DNA from: Eutypa lata
Lineage: Eukaryota > Ascomycota > Sordariomycetes > Xylariales > Diatrypaceae
Reading direction: 5' to 3'
Assembly (NCBI GenBank): GCA_022661535.1
Contig: JAKULF010000002.1
Coordinates: 620,001 to 684,000, forward strand
Length of the DNA stretch: 64,000 nucleotides
Below are positions 42,795 to 62,734 of the stretch, piece by piece. The notes beneath the pieces are model-generated. The model did no database searches and was not told the DNA's origin. It was given only the letters and a program-made list of their open reading frames with translations. Within the stretch, counting starts at the first letter, position 1; each line of letters starts with the position of its first letter. Position numbers and translations under genes: made by a program.

Positions 42795-43344
42795 CCGGCC
42801 TAATTAGCTGGACTTGGTCGAATCGTTAATTCGTCCGTGTTTAACCCTTTATAGCAAACCCGTTAATAATCCTTAATATTAAGCATATTTGCGTACATGC
42901 CAAAGTATAAGGGTAATACTTTTACCATACTAATTTTTCTTACCACCGTCATTAACTTATATACATGTTATAACATTATTATTATTACATTTAATTAACG
43001 CTATCTTTAAGCTAAATTTCGAAAACTTAAGCAACAAGCCCTTTTTAAAGTATATAATAGTTATGGCGATATTATATATATTTTATATTATGTAATTAAC
43101 GATGATAACGTTACGATATACGGAAATAAGTAATAAAAGTAATAATTAAGTAATGGAAGTGATAAATATATAAATAATACAATAAATAATCCGTATATTA
43201 AAAGTATAAGTATTACCTTAGCGCACCTTTAGTTACTTAGCATAAAAGATTCCTGGGGGAGATAAGGCATCGACGAGAGAATTGCCGAAAGCGGTTAGAC
43301 GCGGACGAATTAACGATTCGACCAGGTCCAGCTAACTGGGCCGA
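42795..43344. mobile_element. MITE-like inverted-repeat element, ~550 bp, AT-rich core
   Basis: The arms at about 42797-42850 and 43288-43342 are reverse complements. A 23-nt block is identical (42815-42837 against 43302-43324), and most other differences are C/T or G/A, consistent with light RIP. The core is AT-rich (TTAATAATCC..., ATTATATATATTT) but retains CA/TG. No open frame is present. Such short non-coding TIR elements are non-autonomous DNA transposons. The target-site duplication is not clear, so the superfamily is open. The right end is about 195 bp upstream of the transporter start codon. Confidence 0.8.
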
Positions 43345-43539: not shown

Positions 43540-45366
43540 ATGAAGTCGAACGAGGATATTATCTCTCTAACCCCTAATACTTCATATCAAGACGTGAGCG
43601 ATGCTCGCAAGTCCGAAAAGTTCGAAACCGATACCCCCGAGATCGAGAACGGAGAGCTTTCTCTTTCTGAACGTCCCCTAGAGGAAGCGCTGGGTGCGGA
43701 ACCGCCTCCTCCTGCTGGGCCTGATCCCAACGCGTACCCGGATGGCGGCTTTGAGGCGTGGTTTTGTATCGCGGGCGGATTTGGCGCGGTTTTTTCCAGC
43801 TTCGGCTGGGTGAATTGTATGTATGATGATTATGTACCTACTTAAGTGCTCTATGGGGAGACTTACATAGCGGAGCGAGCAAGCATCTTGTTGACTGAAA
43901 GAGATAATAACAGGCATCGGCGTTTTCCAGGACTACTACCAATCCCACCAACTCACGGCATACTCGCCTGGCACTGTGGCGTGGATACCGGCAACCGAGT
44001 CATTCCTGTTGTTCTTCTTCGTGGGTGCATGGAATACATACGTCTTCGATTCTTGTATTGTGCTGACTTTTTTCTTTGTTTTCTTTCTTTCCGTAGGGTT
44101 TACTTTCCGGCAAGATGGCTGACAATTATGGTCCGCGGTGGCCATTGCTTTTCGGATCCGTCCTGCATGTTGTTGGATTGATGCTTCTCTCGGTATCCAA
44201 TGAGTATTATCAAATATTCCTTACCCAGTGTATCGTCAGCGGAATTGGAACGAGTTTTTTGTTTTATCCTAGTAAGAAACTCGTACCCCCGTCACTGTGG
44301 AGCTATTTTCTGACAATGCCTAGCTATTGCCGCGGCAGGCACTTGGTTCAAGCGACACCGAGCGCTTGCGTTCGGCATCATGGTATCTGGATCCAGTCTG
44401 GGCGGTGTCGTACTTCCCATTATGGTCCAGCGTCTGATCGTGCAACTCGGCTTTGGGTGGTCCATACGCATCACGGGATTCCTTATCCTCGGGCTTCTGG
44501 TCTTCGCCAACATAGCCGTCAAGTCCCGCCTCCCTCCCGCCCCAAAGCCGTTCACCCTGAAAGAATATTTCGTGCCGTTTCTCGAGACACCATTCCTGCT
44601 CCTCGCCGTCGGTTCGTTCTTCGTCTACGTCGGCGCATTCCTGCCCTTCAACTTCATCATCGTCGAGGCGAAGGAAGCTGGCACCCCGACCAACATCACC
44701 GACTATCTCGTCCCCATCATCAATGCGGCGAGCATCTTCGGGAGGATCTTCCCTGCCCACCTGGGGGATGTGTATGGAGTTTTCAACGTTTGCATTATTT
44801 TCACCCTTTTCTCGGGAGTTATAAGCCTTGCTCTGTGGCTGCCGGCTGCTTCGAGCGCTCCTATCATCGTCTTTGCCGTGCTATATGGATTTGCTTCGGG
44901 CTTGACACTTGCGATCATCCCTGCCTTGGTGGCTTCGATATCGGATATCCAAAAGCTGGGCCATCGCGTCGGCACGCTGTATGCTTTCTCCGCTTTCGGT
45001 ACTTTATTCGGCAGGTAAGCTCTCGAGTCCCTTAATAACCTTCTTAGCCTGTCTCGAGAACTCTTGGTCTCTGGCAATAATTGCCATTTCATTGGGCCCA
45101 AACTCTCTAGATGGTGCCACGAACCCCCGAAACATACTGAGAATGGTATTTAACTGACTCTGAGAAAAGCCCTATAGCCGGGGCGATCGTAGGTGCACAG
45201 GATGGCGCCTACACCGGTCTCAAGATATTTTGCGGTATCATGCTGGTTACGGTAGGCACATTAATCGTGATAATCTCCTATTGGAAACTAACGATAGCAG
45301 GGCGGTGCATTTATGGCTCTCTCGCGCATCAAATTGGTGGGTCACAGATTACTGGTAAAGAAATGA
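43540..45366 (+). CDS. MFS monocarboxylate-type transporter, 465 aa
   Basis: Six exons: 43540-43816, 43914-44020, 44097-44271, 44324-45014, 45170-45251 and 45301-45366. After an acidic N-terminus, NAYPDGGFEAWFCIAGGFGAVFSSFGWVN and CIGVFQDYYQSHQL identify the fungal MCT (SLC16-like) branch. GLLSGKMADNYGPRW is the loop-2 MFS signature (G-x3-D-x2-G-x-R), and HRALAFGIMVSGSSLGG is typical of helix 4/5. About twelve helices are present. The C-terminus GGAFMALSRIKLVGHRLLVKK is the expected end and is obtained only by removing the 49-nt intron 45252-45300. Such carriers move monocarboxylates or related metabolites across the plasma membrane; the substrate here is unknown. Intron 45015-45169 is homologous to an intron of the convergent chitin synthase gene. 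A MITE-like element sits in the promoter. Confidence 0.88.
45015..45169 (+). repeat. Introner-like element copy A (intron 4 of the MFS gene, 155 nt)
   Basis: The intron runs from GTAAGC to AAAAG, phase 2, inserted after GGC-AG. Its core 45041-45076 matches the chitin-synthase intron at 35 of 36 positions (TTCTTAGCCTGTCTCGAG... then CTCTTGGTCTCTGGCA). A second block at 45126-45145 (CCCGAAACATACTGAGAATG) matches at 18 of 20. Shorter matches link the two up to both splice sites, so the whole intron is one repeat unit. Confidence 0.85.
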
Positions 45367-46489
45367 GAGATCTATTCAGGCCCTACGAACATTAGGAACC
45401 ATTGCTAGGTCGATGCGATCTTGTTGATCTGTTTGCTAGCGTCGAATGGCAATTGCTAAAGCATAGCGAGGCTTGGAAGAATAATACATAGAATTGTAAA
45501 AAAGCTGACATTTCTTGTTACGGGGTTTGTGTTGGCGGATTGGTGGCTAGCCTATGTGGTCATGTTCTCAGGAGGTTTTGTATTATTGAATGTTTCGAAT
45601 AATAACTAGCGCGATCGTGCTGTTTTCTCCCTGGAAAATTATTGTCACATTCGAAGAGGGTCTCTAAAGAACTTCTTCATAGAATTGTTCAAGTTAGAGA
45701 TATCACTGGCTCTCAATGGGTATGTAAAAGGAACCTGCCCTGAGGCCCTGGCCGGCCTCGGTTCCCATCCCGTTAGGGTTATCATAGGCACATATGGGAC
45801 GGTCTTCAAGCTGGTGGGCTTCTATCTAAGCTGCTCAAGTTAGTGCTTTATGTTATTTACCATATCATCTCTAGGCTAGTATCTTAAAGTCCATAATTTG
45901 ATACATTATGTATAAGTTTTGTGCACTTCTATTAATCCCGACTATTGCAGGAGTCTTGGTAATAGCGAGGGTAAGGAATCTTTTCAGAATTTTACTTAAA
46001 GTTACTATCTGTATTTACATTTCACCTCAAGGGACTTGCACTGATCCTTCAATGTATTTTTCTTGTTTATAGCCCCTAACTAACCCTTTCTATATATCTA
46101 GTTTATTTTTGTGTTATGAAGCAATCAAGGTATATGTAACATAAAGAGTACAATGGTCAATATTCGCTCATCATGTAAATATCGATGAGTGATACCTACC
46201 ATTGACCCGGATTGGATGAACAAAGGTATATCTGCGTTTCAAGCTTTAATGCGCCCTACTGGTTAAAAAGAGATCTACAAGACTAAATAATTTAGGACCT
46301 GAGAGGTTTTAAATGGGAAACTTTCAATAATTAACATTAATATATAGTTAAAGGATGCGCTTTCAAATTATTTTAATACAGAAAAAGGGGTATATCAGCC
46401 GCCCCTCTCCCCCTCCTCTCCTTTTCATTAGGACTTTTGGGATATGACATTTTACAATTGTACTTTCTACAAATGTATTCATCCAAACT
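45367..46489. other. Convergent 3' intergenic region, transporter / chitin synthase
   Basis: This 1.1-kb stretch lies between two convergent 3' ends. It is AT-leaning and no gene is seen. An open frame that starts at 46,363 and runs into the last chitin-synthase exons is an alternative frame of that gene. Confidence 0.6.
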
Positions 46490-49400
46490 CTATCTTTTAG
46501 CGAAACAACACATGAGTCCCGTTTTACCAATAAACCAGAGGAAGCCCAAGAACCGTACCAGTGAGAGAACAGCCTGGACCATGTTAGCTGAGTCCGAGAG
46601 GGACGGAAGGGGGTGCACGACGAACTGTAGCATAAAGAAGAAACCGGAAATATTGAGGAGTCCGGCTGGTAGAAGCTTCCTGTATGCAAGCAGTCATGTT
46701 AGCACAGAACTAGCATATAATAGGTTAGGGGGGTACGCACCGGAACGCCCAATGTCGCAAAATCATCGCTAGTGACGAAGATGACCAGCACCATGTTGGA
46801 TATTATCCAAGAGATCACGAGACGGGTCCTGAAAGACTTGTACGAGTCCTCCAAGTCCTTCGTCTCCGTCGTCACCTCTTCTTCCACGGGAGCGAGCGCT
46901 CGATACACGGTCTTCTTGAACCGGTTGTCGATGTCATCTTGGTCCCTCTCGATTTCCTCGATGACGTCGGCGTCTTTCTCCTTGGTGACGTGAGCAGACG
47001 GCAGAGTCTCGGTTTGGTCCGACCCCTTGGTGCCCCAGGAGACGTCGTGCCAATTGTTAAAGGCATACACCATCAAGATGTTGATGTAGGTCGATGCTAG
47101 TATCAGATATTGCGGGAACGAGTGGAACATGTGCCAGGGGTCTAGGTAGAGGAACGAGGCTACGTAATTGAGCCCGTATATGGTGATGAGGGCAAGCAAG
47201 ATGACGCCTGCCACACCCCCGCTTCCGAACATACTCTGGAAGAATGCTGCGGCCGAGTCGGTGGATATCTGCTCACCGAGGGGTTTCTGTAGCGCGCGGT
47301 AGACCAGGTAGAAGGATAAGACGATAATATACGCCTGTATTAAGCCGAAGGCTACGAAAGACGCGATATATGTGTGTCTCGAGCCTTTGGGCCGATTTCC
47401 AAGAGCTATTCAACCCTCGGAGTTAGTAAAATGTCATTCTTAGTACGTTTCGGGAGCTTGTAGCACTGTCTAGAGTCTAGACACACTAAAATGGTACTGC
47501 CAGAGACCAAGAGCTCTCGAGACAGGCTAAGAAAGGAAATAAAGGACTCCGCAAGAGCTCACCTAGAATAAATTGGACCACGAGAAATGCTAGATAGATG
47601 TACTGGAGTATGATGTTGACAATGGGCGTCGCGGTGTCGCCAAAGGGCCAGCCGTGGTAGTCCGTAGCCTCCACGGGCGTTCCGACGAGGTCCATGATGA
47701 TCTTGGTGGTTAGCCAGTAGGACGCGAGGGAGAACCAACTGAACAGGATGTTGGCGAAGTTGTACAGGAGCTGGATGTGCAGGAAGATCATCCGCACAAA
47801 ACTGTGGCCCGACCGATAGATTCGATTGAAATGGATGAGAGCGTACAGAGACGCCGCGAACGAGCCATTCAACCAACGACGGCGCTGGCTGAGGAATTCG
47901 TCGGGGCCTTCTGGCACGTCGGTTTCCCCCTTCGCTGCTTTGATCTACTTGCATGTTAACGTGTCGTCCATGAACGAGCGAACTCCATTGCTTGAAAGCG
48001 CTGATATGAAATACATAGTAAGAGTTATTATGCATTTTCGGTATAGTATAACGTACTGCGAACAAGTTAGCGAGTGCAACGGAAACGAAAGCCGGAGTAG
48101 GTTCAATAGGACATACCATAAGTCAAGTGCCACTTCTGGCCAGCCTTTGCCACGAGTTCGAAGCAGAGAATGCGGTCTTCGGCGAGGAACATGTTCTTCT
48201 TGAAGATATTCATGTTGTCGATCCCCTTCTTCCCCAGGATCTTCGACAGCGTGTGGTCGCCATGGAAGTACTGCTCCAAAGGCCTCCCCATGATGGCCCT
48301 GAACCTGTAGGCGGAGAAGGCACCCGGCAGGACGGTCACGTACCCAAAGGAGCTCTCCAAGGGCTTGTCGAGGATGTTCGAGATCTTGTACTCGAAGTTC
48401 TGCACGGCGACGATGGGGTTCAGCAGCTTCAGGCCGCGCTTCCCGAGCATGGCGTGGATCTCGCCGCAGGCGCCGCCGAGGTGCTTGTCGTTGTAGAAGC
48501 CCTCCCAGAGGGCCAGCAGCGACCGCGGGCCGGGCTTCGTCCCGGCGTCGATGAGGATGACGACCTCGGGGTTCAGGATGCGGCCGAAGGCGTTAAAGAG
48601 CCAGCGGTGCGAGTTAATCTTCTTGCTGTTCTTCTGCTTTAGGCAGAACATGAGCTGCACGGGCGGCAGGTTCGTGGGGTCGTTGGGGTCGGCGCTGGGC
48701 CGGATAAGCTGCTGGCTCGGCGTTACGGAGAGCTGCGTCGTGAACTCGAAGACGTGCGCGACCGTGTCTCGGCCGTCGATGTCCTTCTTGATGACGCCGT
48801 CCTGGTACACCCCGACGGTCGCGAGCACGTCGAGCACGCTCTTGTCCGCCTTCTCGATGCCGTCGAAGATCAGGCACACCACGATCTTCTCCCACGCGGG
48901 GCCGCTCTTCGTCCAGAAGGTGGACTTCTTGAGCTTCACGATGTCGCGGATGTTCTGCATCACCCCGTGCAGGGTCCTCGCGAAGAGGATCTTGTCCTCG
49001 TTGTAGTAGGTGATGGCGATCATGAGCTCGGTGTGCCGGTTGTACGTCCGCGGGCGCAGGTCGTACCCGTTCATGATGGTGAATTCGTTGGGGTCGCACG
49101 TTGCGGCCGTGTAGCGCATTTTCGAGAACTCCTCGCTGCCCTGGTATTGCGGCTCTACAGCATTCAGAATAGCGGTGGGGACAGGGTAGTCGACGCTGAG
49201 AACGGAACCCTGAATGCCCTTGGCGAGCTTGATCTTCCGGGTGCCACGGCGCTTGAGACCGCCTCCTTCCCCCCCTCCCCCTCCGTTGACATCCTCAATG
49301 GGAGGTTGTTGTCGGTGCGCCCAACTCTCTTCTGGGTCGCTGGGAGTTGAAGGAGGTCGGCCATAGCTCATGCCGTAGCCAAACCCATCGTCAAGGTTGT

Positions 49401-49763
49401 TGTGATCGAACAGATTGTTATCGACGTCATGGGAAATAGATCCCGCAGTGGGGAGCCGATATACCCCTTGAGCGGGGACATCGGTACTGTACGCAGAGGT
49501 GGGAGATACAGGAGAAGTATGGGCACCTAACCTATAAGGGTCGTAACCATGAGAGTCTGGATGGTTTAGTGCGTGTCTCTCCTCGTGGGCCTCATGCTCC
49601 TCGGGTGTGAGGCGGCCCTAAGTAGATAGGTAAGTTAGATGTTTTATTTCTTTTTCTTTGTCAGCATGATAAAACTCCGTGTTCGGCGTACCTCTGTATT
49701 CATAGGGATGTCATGTAGCTCGTATCCTCTAGAATACGGTCGACGACCGTTGGAAGGTTCCAT
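46490..49763 (-). CDS. Chitin synthase, class III-type, 915 aa
   Basis: Six exons: 49763-49692, 49617-48117, 47934-47563, 47405-46741, 46679-46626 and 46573-46490. The N-terminus is cytoplasmic and disordered. The catalytic GT2 domain has [31 protein letters not shown], the EDRIL motif and [19 protein letters not shown]-terminal helices follow, with [17 protein letters not shown] and [17 protein letters not shown]. The end, FLLYAT joined to [19 protein letters not shown], matches class III enzymes (ChsB type) best; class II is the alternative. The enzyme polymerises UDP-GlcNAc into chitin at the plasma membrane, and class III enzymes serve polarised hyphal growth. Intron 47562-47406 is the second introner-like copy. 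At the exon 2/3 junction the expected [10 protein letters not shown] becomes YAKGETD, because only a displaced acceptor keeps the frame. Confidence 0.92.
47406..47562 (-). repeat. Introner-like element copy B (intron 3 of the chitin synthase gene, 157 nt)
   Basis: On the minus strand the intron runs from GTGAGCTCTTGCGG to GTTGAATAG, phase 1, inserted after CTA-G. The 36-nt core lies at 47533-47498 and the second conserved block at 47454-47435. It is the reverse-strand homologue of the transporter intron at 45015-45169, and like it lies sense to its host gene. Confidence 0.85.
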
Positions 49764-52244
49764 CTCGGGGGTTTCCACACTGGAAATTTCTTAGATTATA
49801 CAGAATCGAGGTTTTAGTCGCATGTCGATTTGGGAGCCAAGGAAGGATGGGTTAACGCGGAAGGGTGGAAAGGCGTTTGGTTCCCCGAATGTCCGAAAAG
49901 ATGACGAGAGAGAGAGAGAGAATACAAAAATATGTGAGAGAAGCAAGAATCAAACGGAATTCGGATCGTAACTGAACATAGTACTAACTACAGTCACAGA
50001 ACGAGAAAATCAGATTCAGATCTCTCTTCGTCTGGCCTTCTTCAACACTAGAAAATTTAACCTGACGTTCTCGGAACCTAACTATCTATCTAGATACGTA
50101 GTAGGTAGATCTATTTAAAGAAACACTTGCAAGGGTACTTTTACGTAGATCACCGATCCGAAAAGCAACATCGAGTACTTCGTAGTGGTTTATACTCTTT
50201 TGTTTCGTAATCTCGAGACTAATAAGTACCGACACGTCAACGCTTGGCGATCAGCTGGTTGGGCTATGCTTCCGAAGCTACACATATTAATACGAGAAGA
50301 GAAAAGTGGGCATAGCATGACCAGGTCAGTATATTCCTGATTCGCTCCTAAATTCCCAGTTTGCGGGAATGCTATTGCGGTCGGAAGTGCTATCATTGGC
50401 TGTAGCAGTTGGCTCCCCATCTTGAAACAGTTCGTCATGGAGGGAAGGGATTTAGTGATTCTTATGCACAGCCAGCCGGGAGAGCCGGGTAGCTCGAGTG
50501 TTTTATTTTATTTTACATATGACACCAAGTCTTAGTCAGAACTAATCGGCTCTAAGTTGCTACTGTGCCCCTCGCATGCAAAAAAAAGAGACATTGAAGA
50601 GCATGCATGAGGGTCAGAAAATATGTTAGTCAGGAAGTGCCACAATTCACTGCATGGAATGTCTAATTTAAAACATACGAAATCCCCAACTATGGGGCTA
50701 TGCATCCAATTGCGCGGCGACGGTATCCGTAAATGCCGCCGCTCCGCAATTTCTGTCGTTGAGCGTCGGAGCGGCGGGGCCCATTAAGAGCCGGAAGCCC
50801 GTTACCGTTCTTATCCTTGAACTAACATTTGTCCCGGAGAACTAATACATAAAGCTGAAACTTCCAAGTATACTACTGGTGTCCTGAAATGGATCTTATA
50901 TCCAACTAATATCCTTCAGCTTTGTTTTACTACCTAGGTCAAAATATCATCAATAATGAATGTGTCGTTTCCAGCGTGCTAGAGTATCTTGCATGCTGTT
51001 TAATGGAATATCTCCGCCCCCGTGAAAGGTAGGAATTGTGAACCTCATAATTTATTGCACAGTTGATGGAATTATCATGACAACCGGATTTGTAGATACG
51101 ATACTAATACTGGACAGTGAATATATTGTACTCGCTCTCATCTCCTGGGAATTAATGCTTGAAGTCTAGGACCGATATGCTAAAACACAACGTGCGAATA
51201 CCTCTAGCCCAGGGAGGTATTTGTAGACAGAAAGTTTATATATCTCCTATCATGGGATATTCTTCCTAGGTCTAGTATATAGAGATAAGCTAACTTGAAA
51301 GAGATTGGTTTCGATATAGGTACTTAGATAACTGAACGGGGAATAGGGTCGATTGGAATCTAGTCATAGCTAGATTATAATAGGAAGTACCCAAGTTTTT
51401 GAGGAGATGGCCATGCCCTTTAGAAACGGTTTGGAGCCCAAGGCTGATATAGTTCGACATCAGATAGGTGTTTGGACGACAAATGAGGAAGCTGCCCCAT
51501 CCAATACGAAGATTCACGCCCACCTATCTGACTTTGAGCAAATTGGTGAAGATGTGCTTGAGAAATTTACAAATCCATGCAAGAATACTATGCATCTCGA
51601 ATCAAGTCCCGTCGGTGACATCAGAAGACTGCTCGGTTCATCTTTTCAAGAGGGAGGACTTGTCAACACCCTCGACACTCCAGAGAAGTTAGACAAAAGC
51701 TCAGCTATTCAGATGGTTGATTGAAAGCATCTTGTGATTCGATAACAACCTTAGGTTTTTATTAATGTAGGCCGGTCTACATTATATACCCCTTGTTACC
51801 CCTTTCCCCACTAAAGCTGATCCGTTTCCAAGCATTCACGCAACTTAAATAGATGAGACGCACGCATCATGAGACTTTATAATAGCTGCTGGTCACCTTA
51901 GTTAGTATTCCTCATAATGGATCTGTAAGTGCATTGATCCATATAGCATTCAATTCTACAAGACTCTGCTGGTTAGCTGTGGGATATTGCTGCTAAAATA
52001 ATTGACCCCTTCCGTCATACACATCTACTTACACTGACCTACCTACTTATATACCTTATAGTAATCGTGCATGCTCCAGTAGGATATTTAAAATTTGAAT
52101 GAGCTTCAGACCATAACGCTAAATATAGAATAATCACAGATTATCACCGTCTAAACAAATATGACTAAAATTCGAATTTTTAACGTGTCATTTGATTTAT
52201 TTGGCTACAACGTTGCGCGGCACCTACAACATGCCAATGCACTA
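49764..52244. other. Intergenic region of 2.5 kb, no firm gene
   Basis: This is the upstream region of the chitin synthase gene and the 3' flank of the histidine kinase gene. A GA microsatellite (49,908-49,920) lies about 150 bp upstream of the chitin synthase start. A perfect 11-bp inverted repeat (CCGCCGCTCCG at 50,736-50,746 with its complement at 50,767-50,777) sits in a small GC-rich patch. A 105-codon frame at 51,407-51,724 has no recognisable domain, and I do not call it. Confidence 0.5.
50736..50777. promoter_or_regulatory. GC-rich perfect inverted repeat, 11-bp arms, 20-nt loop
   Basis: CCGCCGCTCCG and CGGAGCGGCGG are perfect complements and contain several CGG/CCG triplets, the half-sites of Zn2Cys6 regulators. 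They lie inside otherwise AT-leaning intergenic DNA. The structure could be an operator or an RNA hairpin; there is no direct evidence for either. Confidence 0.35.
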
Positions 52245-55200
52245 CTACCCCGTAAGTGGAGGACAGAGGCGGTCTATCTGGTCTATGAGCTCCTGAATCC
52301 TATACGGCTTCGTTGTCACCCCGTCCTGCAGTGGTCAGAAGATTTCCGGAATCGTGGAGAAGAAAGGGCACACTTACCATCCCGGACTCGATCGCCACGC
52401 TCACATGCGTGCTACGCACGTTGGCCGTGACGGCGATAATGGGCAAATGGCCGGGGAGCTTTCCCTTCTCCTCTAGGTCTCGGACCTGCTTCGCGAACTC
52501 GAGGCCGTTCATGATGGGCATCTCTATGTCACATAAGACGACGTCAAAGCTAGTCGACGGGCCCTCACATCCAGGCGTAAGACTCGTAACTATTGTGTCC
52601 AAGGCCTCCTTGCCGTGGTTGGTGGCCTTCACGTCGAAGTTGCGGTTCCGGAGCTGTTTGCAGAGGACCTTTTGATTCACGAGATTGTCCTCCACGACGA
52701 GTATACTTCGGTTCGACGTTGGAGATCTCGGCTCGGAAGATCGTCGCAGGTAGATATCGTCCTTATCTTCTGGCAAAGCTACTGGTTCCAAGTTCGCAGT
52801 CAAACTTAGCGTCTCATCAACTTGAATGAGACTTTCCGTGCTGTCAAGCGCATCGGGAGGAGGCTTGGTTTGTCGGCTTCGGACATAGAAAGCAAAAATA
52901 GAGCCAGAGCTAGGGTCACTTGCCATCCCAATCTCACCCCCTAATAATTCTGTAATTTGGCGGGCGATGAATAAACCGAGACCTGATCCGCCGTATTCGA
53001 TATGTGTCTTTGGGGAAACCTGGGCGAAGCGCTTGAAAAGAAGGGCCTTTTCGCTACTTGTTAAGCCTTTTCCCGTGTCCCTGACACTAAGCGATAGGAA
53101 AACGTCATTTTCCTCATCAAAGGGGTTGAGAAAAGCGATAGACGTCGAGGTTGTGCTGGAGTTCTGTGTTGCAGTTGAGGGGCGGCGCTGTGGTACGAAT
53201 TCCACTCCATGTGAACTTGCTGGGGGTCGGTTAGTCGATGCGGATACTGTGATGGTGATTCGTCTGATTTGAGATGGCTTGGTGAACTTGATCGCATTGG
53301 TGACTAAGTTGATAAGGATTTGCATATATCTATTAGGATCGAGGAGAACCCATTCCAGCCCAAGGTGAACAATTGAATCATCTCTAACAAAATCAAGAGT
53401 AATATCCGCCATCCTAAGTTCTGCCTCGAAAATCTTCAAAGATGAGCGGACTAGAGCCATTAGTTGTACGGGAATGGGGGACACGACCAATAGATCCGAG
53501 TCTAGCTTGGACATGGTTAAAACGTCGTTGACGATTGTTGTTTGGTGTTGTACGCAGTATATCACGGTTCGGGCTGCTTCAAGTGCCGCAAGCGTTTGCC
53601 TTTCCAATGCTGCCTTCACCGAGTGGCACATGGATGAAGTTGTGTCTTCGCGCATGGCATCTAGTGAGAGACATGATTTTCTCATTGCTTCAACAACTTC
53701 TTCCCCACAATGAAGAACGGCTGATAAGGGATTTCGAATTTCGTGACTGACCATGTCAATAAATCGTTCCTGTTGGGTTTTGAGCCGAATAGCTTCTTCC
53801 ATCTTGTTTGTAAGGACTTTCGCACTGCAGCATTGGGAATTAGCAATTGCCTCTGTATGTATACCGTAGCGAGGTCTGGGAGTTATTCGGGAGCCCTTGC
53901 TCCCGAACATGACCCTCCCGGTAACTTCAAGCACTGGGGCTAGTTACAAGAGAAGAAAATAATTCCCAAATTCACTTACGCCATTTTATGGGCACTGATG
54001 TCTGTCACCCAGAAGTCCATGTAATCCAGAGTGCCATCTTGCCTGTACTCCGAATAACCCGTCACCAGGATGTAGGAATCGACGGTGATAGCCCCTTCCC
54101 CTTCGGGCATAATGGTATACTTCTTACTTTTCAGTCGAATCTCGCAAGATTCCGGCTTATCGCTATGACACATTTGGGCAAAAAAGTCTTTGGCGTGTTG
54201 GACCTCCTCTTCATGTACAAATTGGAGCCACGGTTGTAGCTCAGTAATATCCTCGTGTGGATCGAGATCGTAGAATTTATACCAGGTTTCGTTGCCATAT
54301 TGCACGTATCCGTCACCGTCGGTCCTAACAATCCCCAACGGGCAATGGTCTGCGAAATTGCGGTATTTGGCTTCTGAAGCCTCGAGTTCCCGCGTGCGTG
54401 TAAGGAGTTGCTGTTCCGTCCACTTGAGCTCGCTAATATCCATGACCAGCACCATCAGACTGTCAACGTCGCCGTATTCGTTTAGGTCTGCATAACAGGC
54501 GCATATACCAGTTCGATTCTCGGAATACATCTCACCCCGCCTGAACGAAGTTTTCGAGCGGATTTGGAACGTCCCCCCTGACTTTTCCCTCAGAACACTA
54601 CTGTGCCATTGCCGGAGTATTTCGACATCTTCAGGGATAATGCCGTCTTCTAACCCAAAGTGCGTCTCTTCCGTGGGATTTAAGCCAGAAAACTGGTACC
54701 AGGCGTCATTGGCGTAACGAATCTGCTGAGTGTGAGTATTAAATGAAAACACTGATAACTCAATATTCTCCATACCTTTCCGTTACTGTCTGTCATAGCA
54801 AGACCGACAAGGGAGCGTTCAGCTAATAGAGTGAACTTCATCTCACTCTTCTGAAATTCCAATGTAGCCCTTCTAGCCGTCTCGGCTCGCCGGCTCATCT
54901 CTTGTGACAACTGCAAATTAGAAACCTGTGGTGCGAGGACATCTGCTACCAGCTTGAGAAATTCCTTATACATTGGGTTGTATCGCCTGTACGGATTGAG
55001 CCCAACTATCAGGAAGGCCGCTACTTGTCCGTCGGTGTTGATCGGTAGAACGACGAACTGCTTGCAAGGTAGGCCATAGCCTTTCCAACTGATTCCCTCA
55101 AGCATGCCACACAGATGGTCTTCGTCTGCATTCACGGCCACCATGGAATTCTGATGAAATGCCTCTAGCATTGACGGCGCAAACCCGTCATGACGTTCCT

Positions 55201-56032
55201 GTATATCCAGATATTCGGGAGCGAGCGCATGTCCCGGGTCTACACCCATGGCTCCTTCCAGGTGGCAATCGTAAGTATTAGGTGATTCGTTGATACCGAT
55301 CTTTTTCTTGACTGAATATAGCAGGGTAAAAGGCAGATCCCTGTCGTCGCGCGCAAGTCCCTCTACTGTAGTCTGCCAAAGCTGAGCGATTGTTGTCGAT
55401 TGTGTGACGTTATGTGCCAATTTCGTCACACAATCGTTTCGTCTCGTCCAAATGACCTCCTTGGTCAAATCTGTCGTGACTGCATAGGACCCTACGACAT
55501 TCCCATTATCATCAATGACTGGTATTAGCTTCCAATCGCAGTAGGTTTCCTCGAGGAAACCATGGCGTTCGATGAGGAGCATCGAGGCAGCACCGGAACG
55601 TGTTTGGCCTACCCTGCGCTGCTCTGACAGTATGTCCTCAAAGACGCCCGCAAAGTTCGGGAAGACATCAGTTGCGTCCAAGCCCAGTATACTAGGGTGC
55701 TTCTGGCCAATCAAAGGCATATACGCCTCATTATACATGATAGAATGGGTTCTCCCCCAGTATAGCACGACTGGGCTGGTATCAACCATCATAAGACGAA
55801 CAATGGTCCGTAGCTCTGTTGGCCAACTGGCCATAGGGCCGAAGCCCGTCTTATCCCAGTCAACATTGCGAATGAGGTGCTGAAAAGGCGATAACGATGG
55901 TGGAGGTGGGTCTCTCGTCCAGTCGAAATTGACCTTTACATCAACTGCAGCTTCGTTGGAAGGCATGAGATGCAGCGGTGCATGATTATTTAAGGGTAAG
56001 GGTGAATAGACGTTGGCGCAATCAGATACCAT
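52245..56032 (-). CDS. Multi-PAS hybrid histidine kinase, 1175 aa
   Basis: Four exons: 56032-54776, 54722-53980, 53824-52378 and 52325-52245. The N-terminus (residues about 35-190) is PAS-like with WPTELRTIVRLMMVDTSPVVLYWG. A GAF-like segment follows (LPFTLLYSVKK...FVVLPINTDGQVAAFLIVGLNP), then two PAS/PAC repeats (IRYANDAWYQFSGLNP and VQYGNETWYKFYDLDP). HisKA has FIDMVSHEIRNPLSAV with the phospho-acceptor His at about 692. HATPase_c has INLVTNAIKF, VRDTGKGL and YGGSGLGLFIARQ. The receiver has VVEDNLVNQKV, the phospho-acceptor Asp at about 1099 (VVLCDIEMP), IAVTANVR, and TTKPYRIQEL in the last exon. It is predicted to be soluble (no membrane helices) and to phosphorylate an Ypd1-type phosphotransfer protein; the input signal is unknown. 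The acceptor of intron 2 was chosen among several in-frame AGs. Confidence 0.88.
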
Positions 56033-57521
56033 GGGAGGTTGTCGGCATCAAGTTATGAATCTTGACACTCTATTCGGAGGGTTTGCTCCGTCGCCTAGGA
56101 TTCAAGTTCTACCGCCGCTAAAGATAACCTTACTGATGACGCCGTAATGGTCGATGCATTCACCATACGCAAACTGTCGGCTAGAACGGGTACATTATTT
56201 GAGTGGATGGATGTTATCAAGGCATGATCATGGAATGTCAGTGAGGCTGGTGAGGGGATGAAAAGCAAAACAGAACAATGTACGTGCACACGCAGCTGTA
56301 TCACGGACCTCTACGCTAAGTTAAGCCTTCACCATCGGGGCCGACCAATCGAGAGCGTTAGCTGCGACGCCATCTACTATGTATGCCTGTCATCTTGCGG
56401 AAGTCTAGTGCCGCACGACAACGCGGCTGGTGGCGGATTGGGTCCATACTAGCTACGATCTGATTGGGTACGTCGACTAGTTAGGTTTGACGCTGTCGCC
56501 TTTGCGAGTAATATGAAATTGTGTGTGGATTTTAGGAACATCAAGATTATGAGCGTTGATTGAGGTTGCATTTTCTAAGCCATGCTGGTCATGCTGGTTC
56601 CGGACCAGTTCGGATTGTATTGTACATAGGTATGCACTACATCCGCTGCACCTGCCGCCAGTGTTGGTGATAGGCACAAACACCACTAGAGCTAAGAAAT
56701 GGGTAGTAGATAGCCGAGATCTATCCACTCCACAGGTGAATTCAACCGGGGGGAGACCCGGTGACAATTAATAACTTTAATATCTTCATCACCACTCACT
56801 ACATACATAAGTATCTACCCTTTCAGCATGCAATAAGACGTGGCAGCGTGGGAATCTTTTAAAGGCCACTTAGTTACCGATCAACCCTCATTGGAATGCT
56901 TGACTTCTTGACATACAGAAAACTAGTCAGTTATAAGAAGGGTAACAAGAGGGAATACATGGCTATGACAAGCTCATTGGCTGCATCCTGACATCCCCTC
57001 TGAACAAACTTTGCATTGGATCACGGGAACGGTAGTTAGTCAGTAATAAGTCAAAACCTCGGAAATAAGACAATGGGCGCTCTTAGCGACGCTGTTCAGC
57101 CCGATGTAGCAAGTAAAATCACAATCCTCATATCGTAACATAGCTTTGACGGATTTTTGAGAATAGGGACAATTCCACATTAGCCATTGTTCTAAAGCAA
57201 CATTGTCAACCCTTTATGAAGTCCGGCTAGATAACCAATTGTAATCTTCTTATAGTAAGTTATTACTGCGGGGGTTCCGACTTCCAGCACCTGGATCTGT
57301 CATAGATAAGAGGTCGCTTAGGCATCAACCGGCAAGTCCCGAGGGCATTTTTCTTTTTCTTGTAGAGATTAAAATTTGCCATCGTTACCCAAATAAATAT
57401 TTACACGATAGATTCACCGATCCTTTCTTTTCCACTCAGTCTATCTATTACCTACTCGTTAACATAGGTACCTACTTAAGCGGCCAAACCCCTCCTGAGC
57501 GGAGCGCCGATACTCAAAATA
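56033..57521. promoter_or_regulatory. Divergent intergenic region between histidine kinase and MOSC-reductase fusion
   Basis: This 1.5-kb stretch separates two divergent start codons. A TACCTACTCG...CATAGGTACCTACTT cluster lies at 57,450-57,477, about 45 bp upstream of the MOSC gene start. No gene is supported. Confidence 0.5.
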
Positions 57522-59316
57522 ATGGGGTCCTACATCCCCGACCCGAGTCTCACGCACCTAGCGCCACTACCTCCAAAAGACGTGCTACTCAACCTCCGGA
57601 CGGGTAAAGTCCGCCCTCTCGGGGGTGTTAAGATACTTTCAGGCATAAACAAACAGTCCCGGGAAGGAAAGGTCAAACTGGTGAAATCGGGTCTTATTGG
57701 CGATGAAAGACAATATCCGCCGCATAAGAGTCCTGACAATGCGCTGTTCCAATACGATTCTCAGCACTATGAATTTTGGAAACAGGCTCTTCCGCCAGGT
57801 CGGGAGCACATCTGTAAGGTGGGGTACGTACTGAAAACAAGTTGATGTCCTACCTTTCTCGTTCTGTTATAGAACCTTACACAATATGATGGGAAATGGC
57901 ACGCTAACTTGTTGAAGGGCCTTCGGAGAGAACTTGGTTATGACACACCTGTCCGAAGAAAATGTGTGCGTAGGAGACAAGTTTCGGCTGGGTCCCGAGG
58001 TCATTATCCAAGTCACCATGCCCAGGCAACCGTGTTACAAGCTGAACCATCGCTTTGAGTATAAGAAGATGTCCAGCTTGACGCAATCGACGGGTCGGAC
58101 TGGATGGTACTATCGCGTTATCCAGGAAGGATACATACAAGAAGGTGACGAGATGGTCTTGGTTGAGCGTATTAACCCGACCTGGTCTCTCGCGCGCATA
58201 CAACACTTTACCTACAACGAGGTCAGCAACATGCAGATCTGCGCCGAGATCGTCGCACTCCCGGGTCTCAGCCAACTCTTCTTCGACATATTCCAAAAGC
58301 GACTTACCGACGGGGTAGAGGACATGAGCGGTCGCTTGAACGGCGACACTGCAGTGCTTTGGCGACCCTACAAGCTCGTCCAGAAAAAGCCCCTGACGCC
58401 GAGGGTCAAGAAGTTCGTCTTCGCCGCAGAGGATCCTAATATCGATGCGGATGAATTGCAGTTTGGCCGGTTTCCACACGTACGGCTGAAGTTCGGATCC
58501 GACGCCCAGTACACGAGAGCCTATTCTGTGGTTTCTGGTGATATGAGATCGTTTGAATTAGGTATCGCCAAGGACGATAACTCCCGCGGTGGATCACTGT
58601 TCTTGCACGATGAGTTCGAAGTAGGCGATGTTCTGAAAGTGGCAAGGGGCAACAATGCACTGAGATCCAAAGACCCAATACAGGAACTGCAAGCAATGAA
58701 GCACGTCTTCATACTGGGCGGCATTGGTGTAACCGCTTTCATGGGTGAGATCCGGGCCTTGGCGCAGGTAGCTGCTGATTTCGAGGTGCATTATGCCGTC
58801 CGCAGTAGACGGGAAGCCGCATACCTGAGTCTTTTACCCCAAGAAAGGACGACGGTATATGCCAAGAGTGAGCGTCAGCGCTTGAACGTGGAGAAGGCGA
58901 TCCCTCCGATCAAAAATGCTCCGAACCCGGAGGCTGTGGTGTATTGTTGCGGCCCAACAGCGCTCCTCGATGCATGTCGCGAGCAATGTGAAAAGCTAGG
59001 GTACCCTCGGTCTCACATATATTTCGAAGAGTTTGGTGGGGCTGCCACTGGCACAGGTGACCCGTTTGAAGCTGAAATCAAATCTACCGGAAAGGTTCTC
59101 CAGGTGCCTAAGGAGAAGTCGCTCCTCCAGGTGCTAAATGAGGCTGGCTTCGAGATCGATGCGTCGTGTATGGTCGGCAACTGCGGCACTTGTATGGTGG
59201 ATTTATGCCAAGGCGACGTAGCCCACCGGGGCGTAGCACTGGATGATGAGCAGAAGAAGGACACTATGTTGAGTTGCGTTAGCCGAGGGAAAGGGAGAAT
59301 TATGATTGATTGCTAG
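57522..59316 (+). CDS. MOSC domain - ferredoxin-reductase - [2Fe-2S] fusion protein, 566 aa
   Basis: Two exons: 57522-57823 and 57918-59316, phase 2, with a GTACGT donor and an AAG acceptor. Splicing restores the MOSC motif GAFGENL. Residues about 20-200 resemble the YiiM-type MOSC domain (KSPDNALFQYDSQHYEFW, LVMTHLSEENVCVGDKFRLG). A flavin-reductase module follows, with ARPYS-like TRAYSVVSGD for FAD/FMN binding and HVFILGGIGVTAF and VVYCCGPTALLDACRE for NAD(P)H. The C-terminal plant-type ferredoxin domain has CMVGNCGTCMVDLC plus a distal Cys (LSCVSRG) for [2Fe-2S]. MOSC proteins handle molybdenum-cofactor-linked or reductive detoxification chemistry; the reductase and ferredoxin modules would feed electrons from NAD(P)H within one chain. 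The substrate is unknown. The architecture resembles bacterial YiiM plus phthalate-dioxygenase-reductase fusions. Confidence 0.88.
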
Positions 59317-62092: not shown

Positions 62093-62734
62093 ATGGGGAA
62101 CACGAATTCTAAGCCCAGTCGCAAGAGGTAGATACCACCTCTCACTTGTACTATATAATCACTAGGTAACCTCCCCTTTTGCTTTAGCTCCACGTCCCAC
62201 AACTATGGACATCACGACAACCTTAGACATCACGACAACCCTAGACATCACGACAACCCTAGACACCACGACAACCCTAGACACCACGACAACCAGGAAC
62301 ATCGCGAGAATCATGGACATCGCAACAACCAGAGACATCGTGAGAATCATGGACATCGCAACAACCAGAGACATCGCGAGAATCATGAACACCGCGAGAA
62401 CCAGAGACATCGTGAGAATCATGGACATCGCGAGAACCAGAGACATCGTGAGGATCATGGACATCGCGAGAATCATGGACATCGCGAGAACCAGAGACAT
62501 CGTGAGAATCATGGACACCGCGACAACCAGAGACATCGCGAGAATCATGAACACCGCGAGAATCGTGAACATCGCGGCAACCATGGACATCAAGGCAACG
62601 ATCAGCATACATATCACACTGTCTCCGAGGAAACTACCCGATACCACCGCATCGTGAAATTTGGCTATGCTCCGGATAAGGCCACCGCTGTAGTTCACGA
62701 ACTCGACGCCAACCAACGCCGACCTAATCAGTAG
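62093..62734 (+). CDS. His-rich hexapeptide-repeat protein with N-myristoylation-like start, 182 aa
   Basis: Two exons: 62093-62127 (MGNTNSKPSRK) and 62188-62734, phase 2, with a GTAGAT donor, a TCACTAG-like branch region and a TTTTGCTTTAG acceptor. The second exon is open in a frame that lacks its own start codon, so it is easily missed. The N-terminus MGNTNSKPS fits the N-myristoylation consensus (MG-x3-S/T), suggesting membrane tethering. Residues about 19-136 are degenerate 6-residue repeats of HRENHG, HRENQR and HHDNPR type, encoded by 18-bp DNA repeats. The unique C-terminus TVSEETTRYHRIVKFGYAP...HELDANQRRPNQ looks like a conserved non-repeat domain. His spacing suggests metal binding (inference). 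Overlapping frames on both strands are open only because the repeat lacks stops. Confidence 0.68.
62206..62590 (+). repeat. 18-bp tandem coding repeat (His-rich)
   Basis: Imperfect tandem units of the type CATCGCGAGAATCATGGA and CATCGCGAGAACCAGAGA alternate across about 385 bp, after a block of CATCACGACAACCCTAGA-like units. Unit length is a multiple of three, so copy-number change would preserve the frame. Confidence 0.9.

Follow-up and report, generated by a model that had tools for sequence, protein, structure and literature searches.

Matching introns in a transporter gene and a chitin synthase gene of Eutypa lata as probable copies of an introner-like element

Introner-like elements of Dothideomycetes (Capnodiales) were reportedly described by van der Burgt in 2012 and by Collemare in 2015, and introners that are DNA transposons are said to have been found in algae by Huff in 2016. 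Here we describe two matching introns, one in the gene of a transporter of the major facilitator superfamily (MFS) and one in a chitin synthase gene, that lie in a 64,000-nucleotide (nt) stretch of the genome of Eutypa lata (Xylariales; assembly GCA_022661535.1, contig JAKULF010000002.1, positions 620,001 to 684,000 of the forward strand; referred to as the window). They are probably copies of a fungal introner-like element that has spread in sense orientation through unrelated coding genes, presumably by way of an RNA intermediate. The origin of new spliceosomal introns is a long-standing open question. The kind of element described here is already known, and the interesting part is an architecture common to the families of one genome.

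The Dothideomycete elements have been described as repeated simple introns in unrelated genes, with more than one family per species, which degenerate with time (PMC4457414), and as seamless insertions that contain inverted repeats or form stable structures and prefer AG/GY sites; the Xylariales elements treated in the same passages showed no similarity to them (PMC8469720). From 14 Xylariales, 288 stwintrons were reported, some of which share 10-nt near-terminal repeats with the 5′ arm GUAUAAAAAC (PMC12403724). An earlier note on this DNA regarded introners as not well documented in Sordariomycete-like genomes, a premise that has been overtaken, as repeated symmetrical introns and stwintrons have been published for Xylariales (PMC8469720, PMC12403724). 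In the section of Gozashti 2022 used here (PMC9860276), the ascomycete families appear as an outlier without inverted repeats or duplications. The mechanisms that have been proposed are reverse splicing into transcribed DNA and the trapping of intron RNA at DNA breaks (PMC12403724, PMC8469720). In the papers on introners consulted, supplements aside, no published report of the family sequences described below was found.

The intron pair of the window and its family

End-to-end alignment of the transporter intron with the chitin synthase intron gave an identity of 78.5%. Read directly, a 36-nt core (45041-45076 against 47533-47498) differs in one base and a 20-nt block (45126-45145 against 47454-47435) in two, and both introns are preceded by an exonic AG and followed by C. 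When either intron was used as query in a whole-genome BLAST search, the other was recovered with an E value of about 2e-22, and the likeness is thus far above chance. Removal of the transporter intron joins its exons in frame in phase 2 (...GTLFG-SPIAGAIVG), and removal of the chitin synthase intron gives an in-frame join in phase 1. The spliced chitin synthase junction is gap-free against the two solved chitin synthases for which an alignment was listed.

Searches of the 54.5-Mb genome, with actual copies and the family consensus as BLAST queries and with sequence patterns, located this family (family 1, about 157 nt) at 45 places on 14 contigs, a lower bound that covers the best-scoring candidates only. 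The transporter intron gave 23 matches, the chitin synthase intron gave 38, and for the consensus the best 40 of 46 candidates were scored. A divergent copy as query, together with one of two pattern searches, contributed one extra place, and reversed-pattern controls found zero places genome-wide. Six duplicate loci were removed from the first collection. The alignment A2 comprises 30 copies, L031 being omitted, and a larger alignment comprises 44 of the 45; co-variation and pairwise identity were calculated for 43 copies, of which 25 were folded, and the tree was built from all 45, non-coding ones included.

In the alignments the likeness of the copies ends at the splice sites. All 40 copies within genes start with GT and 36 of them with GTRAG, the branch-site motif of the consensus, which reads CTAAC or CTGAC, lies about 17 nt from the intron end, and the 3′ termini are mostly TTGGGTAG, TTGGGAAG or close variants. 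The copy C7_1510585, which has lost its middle, is still readable as an 83-nt intron. In each of the 40 genic copies a sense open frame runs over the spliced junction, and in 37 of them both flanks stay open for at least 30 codons. These copies were sorted by frame and codon score, some 5′ and 3′ ends being picked by hand. Thirteen family 1 hosts were tested for support of the junction, which in 10 falls within a matched domain, an alignment to a solved structure or, for the transporter, matches to paralogues. The 10 hosts are chitin synthase, the transporter, GMP synthase, GH47 mannosidase, CinA, a short-chain dehydrogenase, a sugar transporter, a P450, an NmrA protein and an amino acid permease. 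An amine oxidase and a HET protein gave Pfam matches with the junction outside the matched stretch, and the remaining host gave zero Pfam match.

Identity to the family 1 consensus ranges from 71% to 92% with a median of 85%, and the best pair of copies reaches 89%. The tree is star-like, with a median tip of 0.13 and good support for 3 of 42 inner branches. Given a divergence of about 15% from the consensus, the family 1 burst is not very recent. The earlier note had taken the two introns for the same sequence, set in unrelated genes with a shared AG/C exon context and in phases 2 and 1, and all of this is borne out by alignment, direct reading and the in-frame junctions. A genome search, which it had proposed, revealed further copies, most of which coincide with sense introns, and in so far as its refuting conditions were examined, they do not speak against it. 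Of the recent multiplication that it postulated, the multiplication is upheld by the 45 copies on 14 contigs, but the recency finds no support in the identities and the star-like tree.

Table 1. Coordinates of the introner-like copies, their near-terminal arms and the host genes in the window
Feature	Position	Strand	Remarks
Family 1 copy, intron of MFS (monocarboxylate-type) transporter	45015..45169	+	155 nt, phase 2; in-frame FG-SPIAGA, paralogue matches
Family 1 copy, intron of chitin synthase	47406..47562	-	157 nt, phase 1; solved chitin synthases, three paralogous loci
5′ near-terminal arm, transporter copy	45020..45028	+	Decayed relative to consensus CTCTCGGAG; alignments and direct reading
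Branch-site motif CTGAC overlapping 3′ near-terminal arm ACTCTGAG, transporter copy	45154..45164	+	Alignments and direct reading
5′ near-terminal arm, chitin synthase copy, with 2-nt insert	47546..47557	-	Alignments
3′ near-terminal arm, chitin synthase copy	47414..47423	-	Alignments
Family 2 copy, intron of MOSC-domain oxidoreductase	57824..57917	+	94 nt; MOSC match over spliced junction
Family 3 copy, intron of hybrid histidine kinase between PAS and HisKA parts	53825..53979	-	155 nt; open frame over junction
Host gene, MFS transporter	43540..45395	+	Start, stop and exons from translation only
Host gene, chitin synthase	46520..49780	-	Limits approximate

Two further families and intron-free paralogues

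At least two further introner families are present in the genome beside family 1. They were uncovered by an all-against-all comparison of flanks and window, 194.5 kb in all, with the known copies masked. Family 2 (about 104 nt) occupies at least 55 places, counted as the best 40 of 52 BLAST candidates, 13 new ones of 33 pattern places and two others. Among the hosts tested, its junctions lie within matches to OPT (a single gene with two of these introns), MOSC, ABC2_membrane, GH3_C, GH43 and permease domains, the GH3_C and GH43 matches being below the Pfam cut-off; one host tested gave zero Pfam match. Family 3 (about 156 nt) occupies at least 40 places, the best 40 of 41 candidates having been scored. 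One of its junctions falls within a sugar transporter match, that of the window copy lies outside the Pfam stretches, and one host tested gave zero Pfam match. For both families the intron status was checked for a minority of the copies. Alignments contained 31 of 32 family 2 copies (the one dropped has the same flanks as another), with the exon base read from 30, and 9 of 11 family 3 copies, two truncated ones being excluded. The family 3 locus L095, which offers an implausible frame only, stood outside the Pfam test. All three families meet in L010 (C5:172014-175168), apparently one gene, with one intron of family 1, one of family 2 and three of family 3.

Families 1 and 3 gave a z score of 4.35 in global and a p value of 0.11 in local alignment; they may be distant relatives and are therefore not treated as independent. 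Between families 1 and 2 a marginal local match (p 0.044) stands beside a global p of 0.27, and family 2 had no whole-length similarity to either of the others. A separate repeat of about 114 nt, common to L017 (1917-2030) and L076 at the end of contig C17 with 72% identity and a branch-site-like motif, is possibly a further family. Two other repeats were noted in the window: a 55-nt inverted pair upstream of the transporter gene (42796-42850 and 43288-43343, 89% identical) and internal direct repeats of 72-80% identity over about 400 bases at 62199-62591.

The introns have no counterpart at the same positions in the paralogues of three hosts. Gain was judged here from paralogues in the same genome, which are second best to orthologues. 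Three more chitin synthase loci extend to the site, and all of them continue through it without the intron, at identities of 67%, 41% and 41%; one of these three matches has a stop codon inside. Of 36 matches of the transporter to other loci, 22 extend over the intron site, 3 of the 22 with stop codons, and five nearly full-length matches (33-38% identity) are free of stop codons. The third host, an amino acid permease gene, carries one family 1 and one family 2 intron, and both sites are spanned in its paralogues at C6:857437 (31%) and C9:1799504 (29%) as well as in the weak, identically scoring loci C6:1250526 and C11:3369507 (21%). Contigs C6 and C11 likely contain a recent segmental duplication or an assembly duplicate, to judge from the equal scores of the latter two loci with one protein and from the identical 90-nt flanks around the same family 2 intron at C11:3245564 and C6:1374860.

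The near-terminal stem and the insertion sites

The longest Watson-Crick pairing was determined between the first 25 and the last 35 nt of the majority consensus of each family. Stems of 9 bp (CTCTCGGAG/CTCCGAGAG), 12 bp (TAAAAACAAGTT/AACTTGTTTTTA) and 10 bp (TTGGGAGTTA/TAACTCCCAA) were obtained for families 1, 2 and 3, respectively, and each was matched by none of 1000 shuffles. With G-U pairs permitted, the stems measure 11, 13 and 10 bp, lengths that were reached by 9, 1 and 25 of 1000 shuffles. If position 15 of the family 1 consensus is T, the majority base of 30 copies, the three stems measure 10, 12 and 10 bp; in the 44-copy alignment C is commoner there (21 versus 17 of 43), and with C in the consensus the family 1 stem counts 9 rather than 10 bp. 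The arms begin at intron nt 6, 9 and 11 in the three consensus introns, each of which has a 3′ arm that overlaps the branch-site motif and stops 8 nt short of the intron end. The 3′ arm of the chitin synthase copy likewise overlaps the end of its branch motif CTAAC and stops 8 nt short of the 3′ splice site. Folding of the consensus introns of families 1, 2 and 3 gave z scores of -3.7, -2.6 and -6.9 against 60 mononucleotide shuffles; the z score was -4.6 for the first family 1 consensus and -1.0 for the window copy of family 2 on its own. When the arms of families 1 and 3 are read against each other, two pairs are altered on both sides, C-G to G-C and C-G to T-A, with pairing kept, which in this one comparison would suggest a compensatory change if the two families are homologous.

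A target-site duplication was not found in the 40 family 1 copies examined for it, the longest word shared by the flanks averaging 3.18 nt against 3.05 ± 0.13 for shuffled flanks. An 8-nt repeat that flanks the copy C5_3116349m was considered as such a duplication and rejected, as there is no excess over the 40 copies. The exon upstream of family 1 shows a clear base bias: position -1 is G in 38 of 40, position -2 is A in 21 and T in 16, and C is enriched at -4 (23/40) and -3 (24/40). Phases 0, 1 and 2 are represented by 22, 6 and 12 copies (chi-square test against equal thirds, p 0.007). No comparable bias was seen at the last exon base of family 2 (C 11, T 10, G 5, A 4; n=30), and in family 3 the exon base after the intron is T in all nine copies. 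Within family 1, exons ending in AG go with introns ending in TAG, and exons ending in TG with AAG followed by G (Fisher tests, p 0.002 and 0.004). As this association partly tracks subclades of the tree, we draw no mechanism from it. The G-ending exons might offset the weaker GTRAGC donor of family 1.

Mode of spread and relation to known systems

Seamless insertion, ends at the splice sites, sense placement, lack of a duplication and stem-closed ends all fit an RNA intermediate. The copied form would be the excised intron RNA, closed by the near-terminal stem; this RNA would either reverse-splice into transcribed DNA or be captured there at a break, and would then be turned into DNA. After insertion the splice signals alone would be required and the stem could decay; we read the stem as needed for copying and not for staying. 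For family 1, the site bias would speak for reverse splicing into protosplice-like sites rather than for insertion at random breaks. As a tentative extension, the copying activity could be host-borne, and any intron with a stem of roughly 10 bp and a 3′ arm that lies on the branch site, 8 nt from the acceptor, could be its substrate. Under the same reading, and no less tentatively, unrelated introns would repeatedly turn introner, with at least two lineages (family 2, and families 1 and 3) following one rule.

Several observations weigh against the spread of these introns by stem-closed RNA copies. Of the 45 family 1 copies, five are situated outside readable genes; their surroundings are non-coding or decayed, and three of the five lie less than 45 kb from a contig end. 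One of the 40 genic copies (C10_2024501p) has a negative codon score, and we infer the splicing of the copies from reading frames. The bias of family 1 for C-C-A/T-G upstream of the intron is not foreseen by a model of random breaks. Co-variation of the arms within family 1 does not go beyond that of shuffles (z 0.96), RNAalifold returned zero consensus structure for 30 copies, and the arms are not better conserved than the rest of the intron (0.80 versus 0.85, p 0.12). Folding, a check proposed in the earlier note, gives a divided picture, with z scores of -3.7 to -4.6 for the family 1 consensus and a mean of only -0.8 for individual copies (25 of 43). With no significant co-variation of the arms and an empty RNAalifold result, the stem rests on the consensus, which is a real weakness.

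Part of these features would also be expected of non-autonomous DNA transposons of the miniature inverted-repeat transposable element (MITE) type, whose inverted repeats are recognized by a transposase that pastes them into genes, where splicing removes them. Each family has an inverted repeat of 9-12 bp near both ends, the family 1 target is near-palindromic (C-C-A/T-G, then G in 21 of 40), and most introner families outside the ascomycetes show a sign of DNA transposition according to the cited part of PMC9860276. However, the 40 copies lack a target-site duplication, the repeats are near-terminal rather than terminal, and the conserved element contains both splice sites, with no sign that a splice site was co-opted. 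Moreover, 40 of the 45 copies are sense introns and five lie outside readable genes, antisense frames having been scored for part of the copies, and a larger element with the same ends was absent among the best 40 of the 46 candidates of the consensus search. We therefore consider DNA transposition unlikely, and less likely than an RNA intermediate. A somewhat smaller chance is given to an origin from [D1,2] stwintrons of the Xylariales type, which would have lost the inner splice sites and would now propagate as simple introns. The near-terminal repeat, the lack of duplications and the seamless, sense-only insertion resemble stwintrons and cropped introns as characterized in the parts of PMC8469720 and PMC12403724 used here, and the central TTTTAG-TGTGCC of family 1 would fit an inner acceptor followed by the remainder of a donor. 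Yet the alignment does not preserve the central AG, several copies having GG, AT or GA there, and an inner branch site was not seen in the consensus. The arms of all three consensus introns differ in sequence from the published core GUAUAAAAAC, and a retained G would shift the frame, whereas the junctions are in frame with homologues. A current [D1,2] stwintron, in which an inner intron splits the outer donor (G1/U2), was rejected for want of a conserved inner AG; the whole family 1 element is removed in frame as a single intron.

Two explanations without mobility of the introns fare far worse. A shared function can in principle make introns of unrelated genes alike, and old shared introns could be kept similar by constraint on an RNA gene or regulatory element. 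However, zero Rfam families reached the gathering score in the window at 44500-58500, the genes are unrelated, the paralogues of three hosts are intron-free at the same positions, and the divergence is star-like with a stem no more constrained than elsewhere, which makes such constraint very improbable. Hardly any credence is left for local gene conversion or duplication between the neighbouring genes, the alternative raised in the earlier note, by which one intron would have been made from the other. The host genes are separated by about 1.1 kb and the two introns by 2.2 kb, 4 of the 45 copies are found on contig C24, and the nearest relative of the transporter copy (80%) is located 50 kb away on the same contig. 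But neither window copy is the nearest relative of the other: the chitin synthase copy has its best match on contig C8 (89.4%), with the transporter copy only 25th of 42 (78.5%), and in the ranking for the transporter copy, that of chitin synthase comes third of 42, behind the 50-kb neighbour and a copy on contig C14. The two are also unpaired in the tree, and 43 more copies exist elsewhere. Local gene conversion was rejected on this identity ranking.

At least three families with one anatomy, represented by 45, 55 or more and 40 or more copies, make it possible to test directly whether copying is driven by a near-terminal RNA stem. Together with the stwintron evidence (PMC12403724), their stems qualify the statement, taken from the cited part of PMC9860276, that ascomycete introners are without inverted repeats. 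The families share with the algal DNA-transposon introners the short inverted repeats near both ends and the occurrence of families in unrelated genes, but differ in having no target-site duplication and no sign of splice-site co-option and in the sense orientation of 40 of 45 copies. Like the Dothideomycete elements they are seamless, repeated simple introns in unrelated genes, with several families per genome and with decay over time; the short near-terminal stem and the overlap of its 3′ arm with the branch-site motif in three families set them apart. A further parallel is found in the Xylariales stwintrons with the NTIRE-10 repeat, which likewise have a near-terminal inverted repeat of about 10 nt and no target-site duplication, are inserted seamlessly on the coding strand, lose their symmetry with age and are missing from paralogues. 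In contrast to these, the introns described here are simple and not nested, their repeats have other sequences, their 3′ arm overlaps the branch-site motif whereas the published arms are clear of it, and family 1 shows a marked site preference whereas the published sites, as far as the cited parts describe them, show none.

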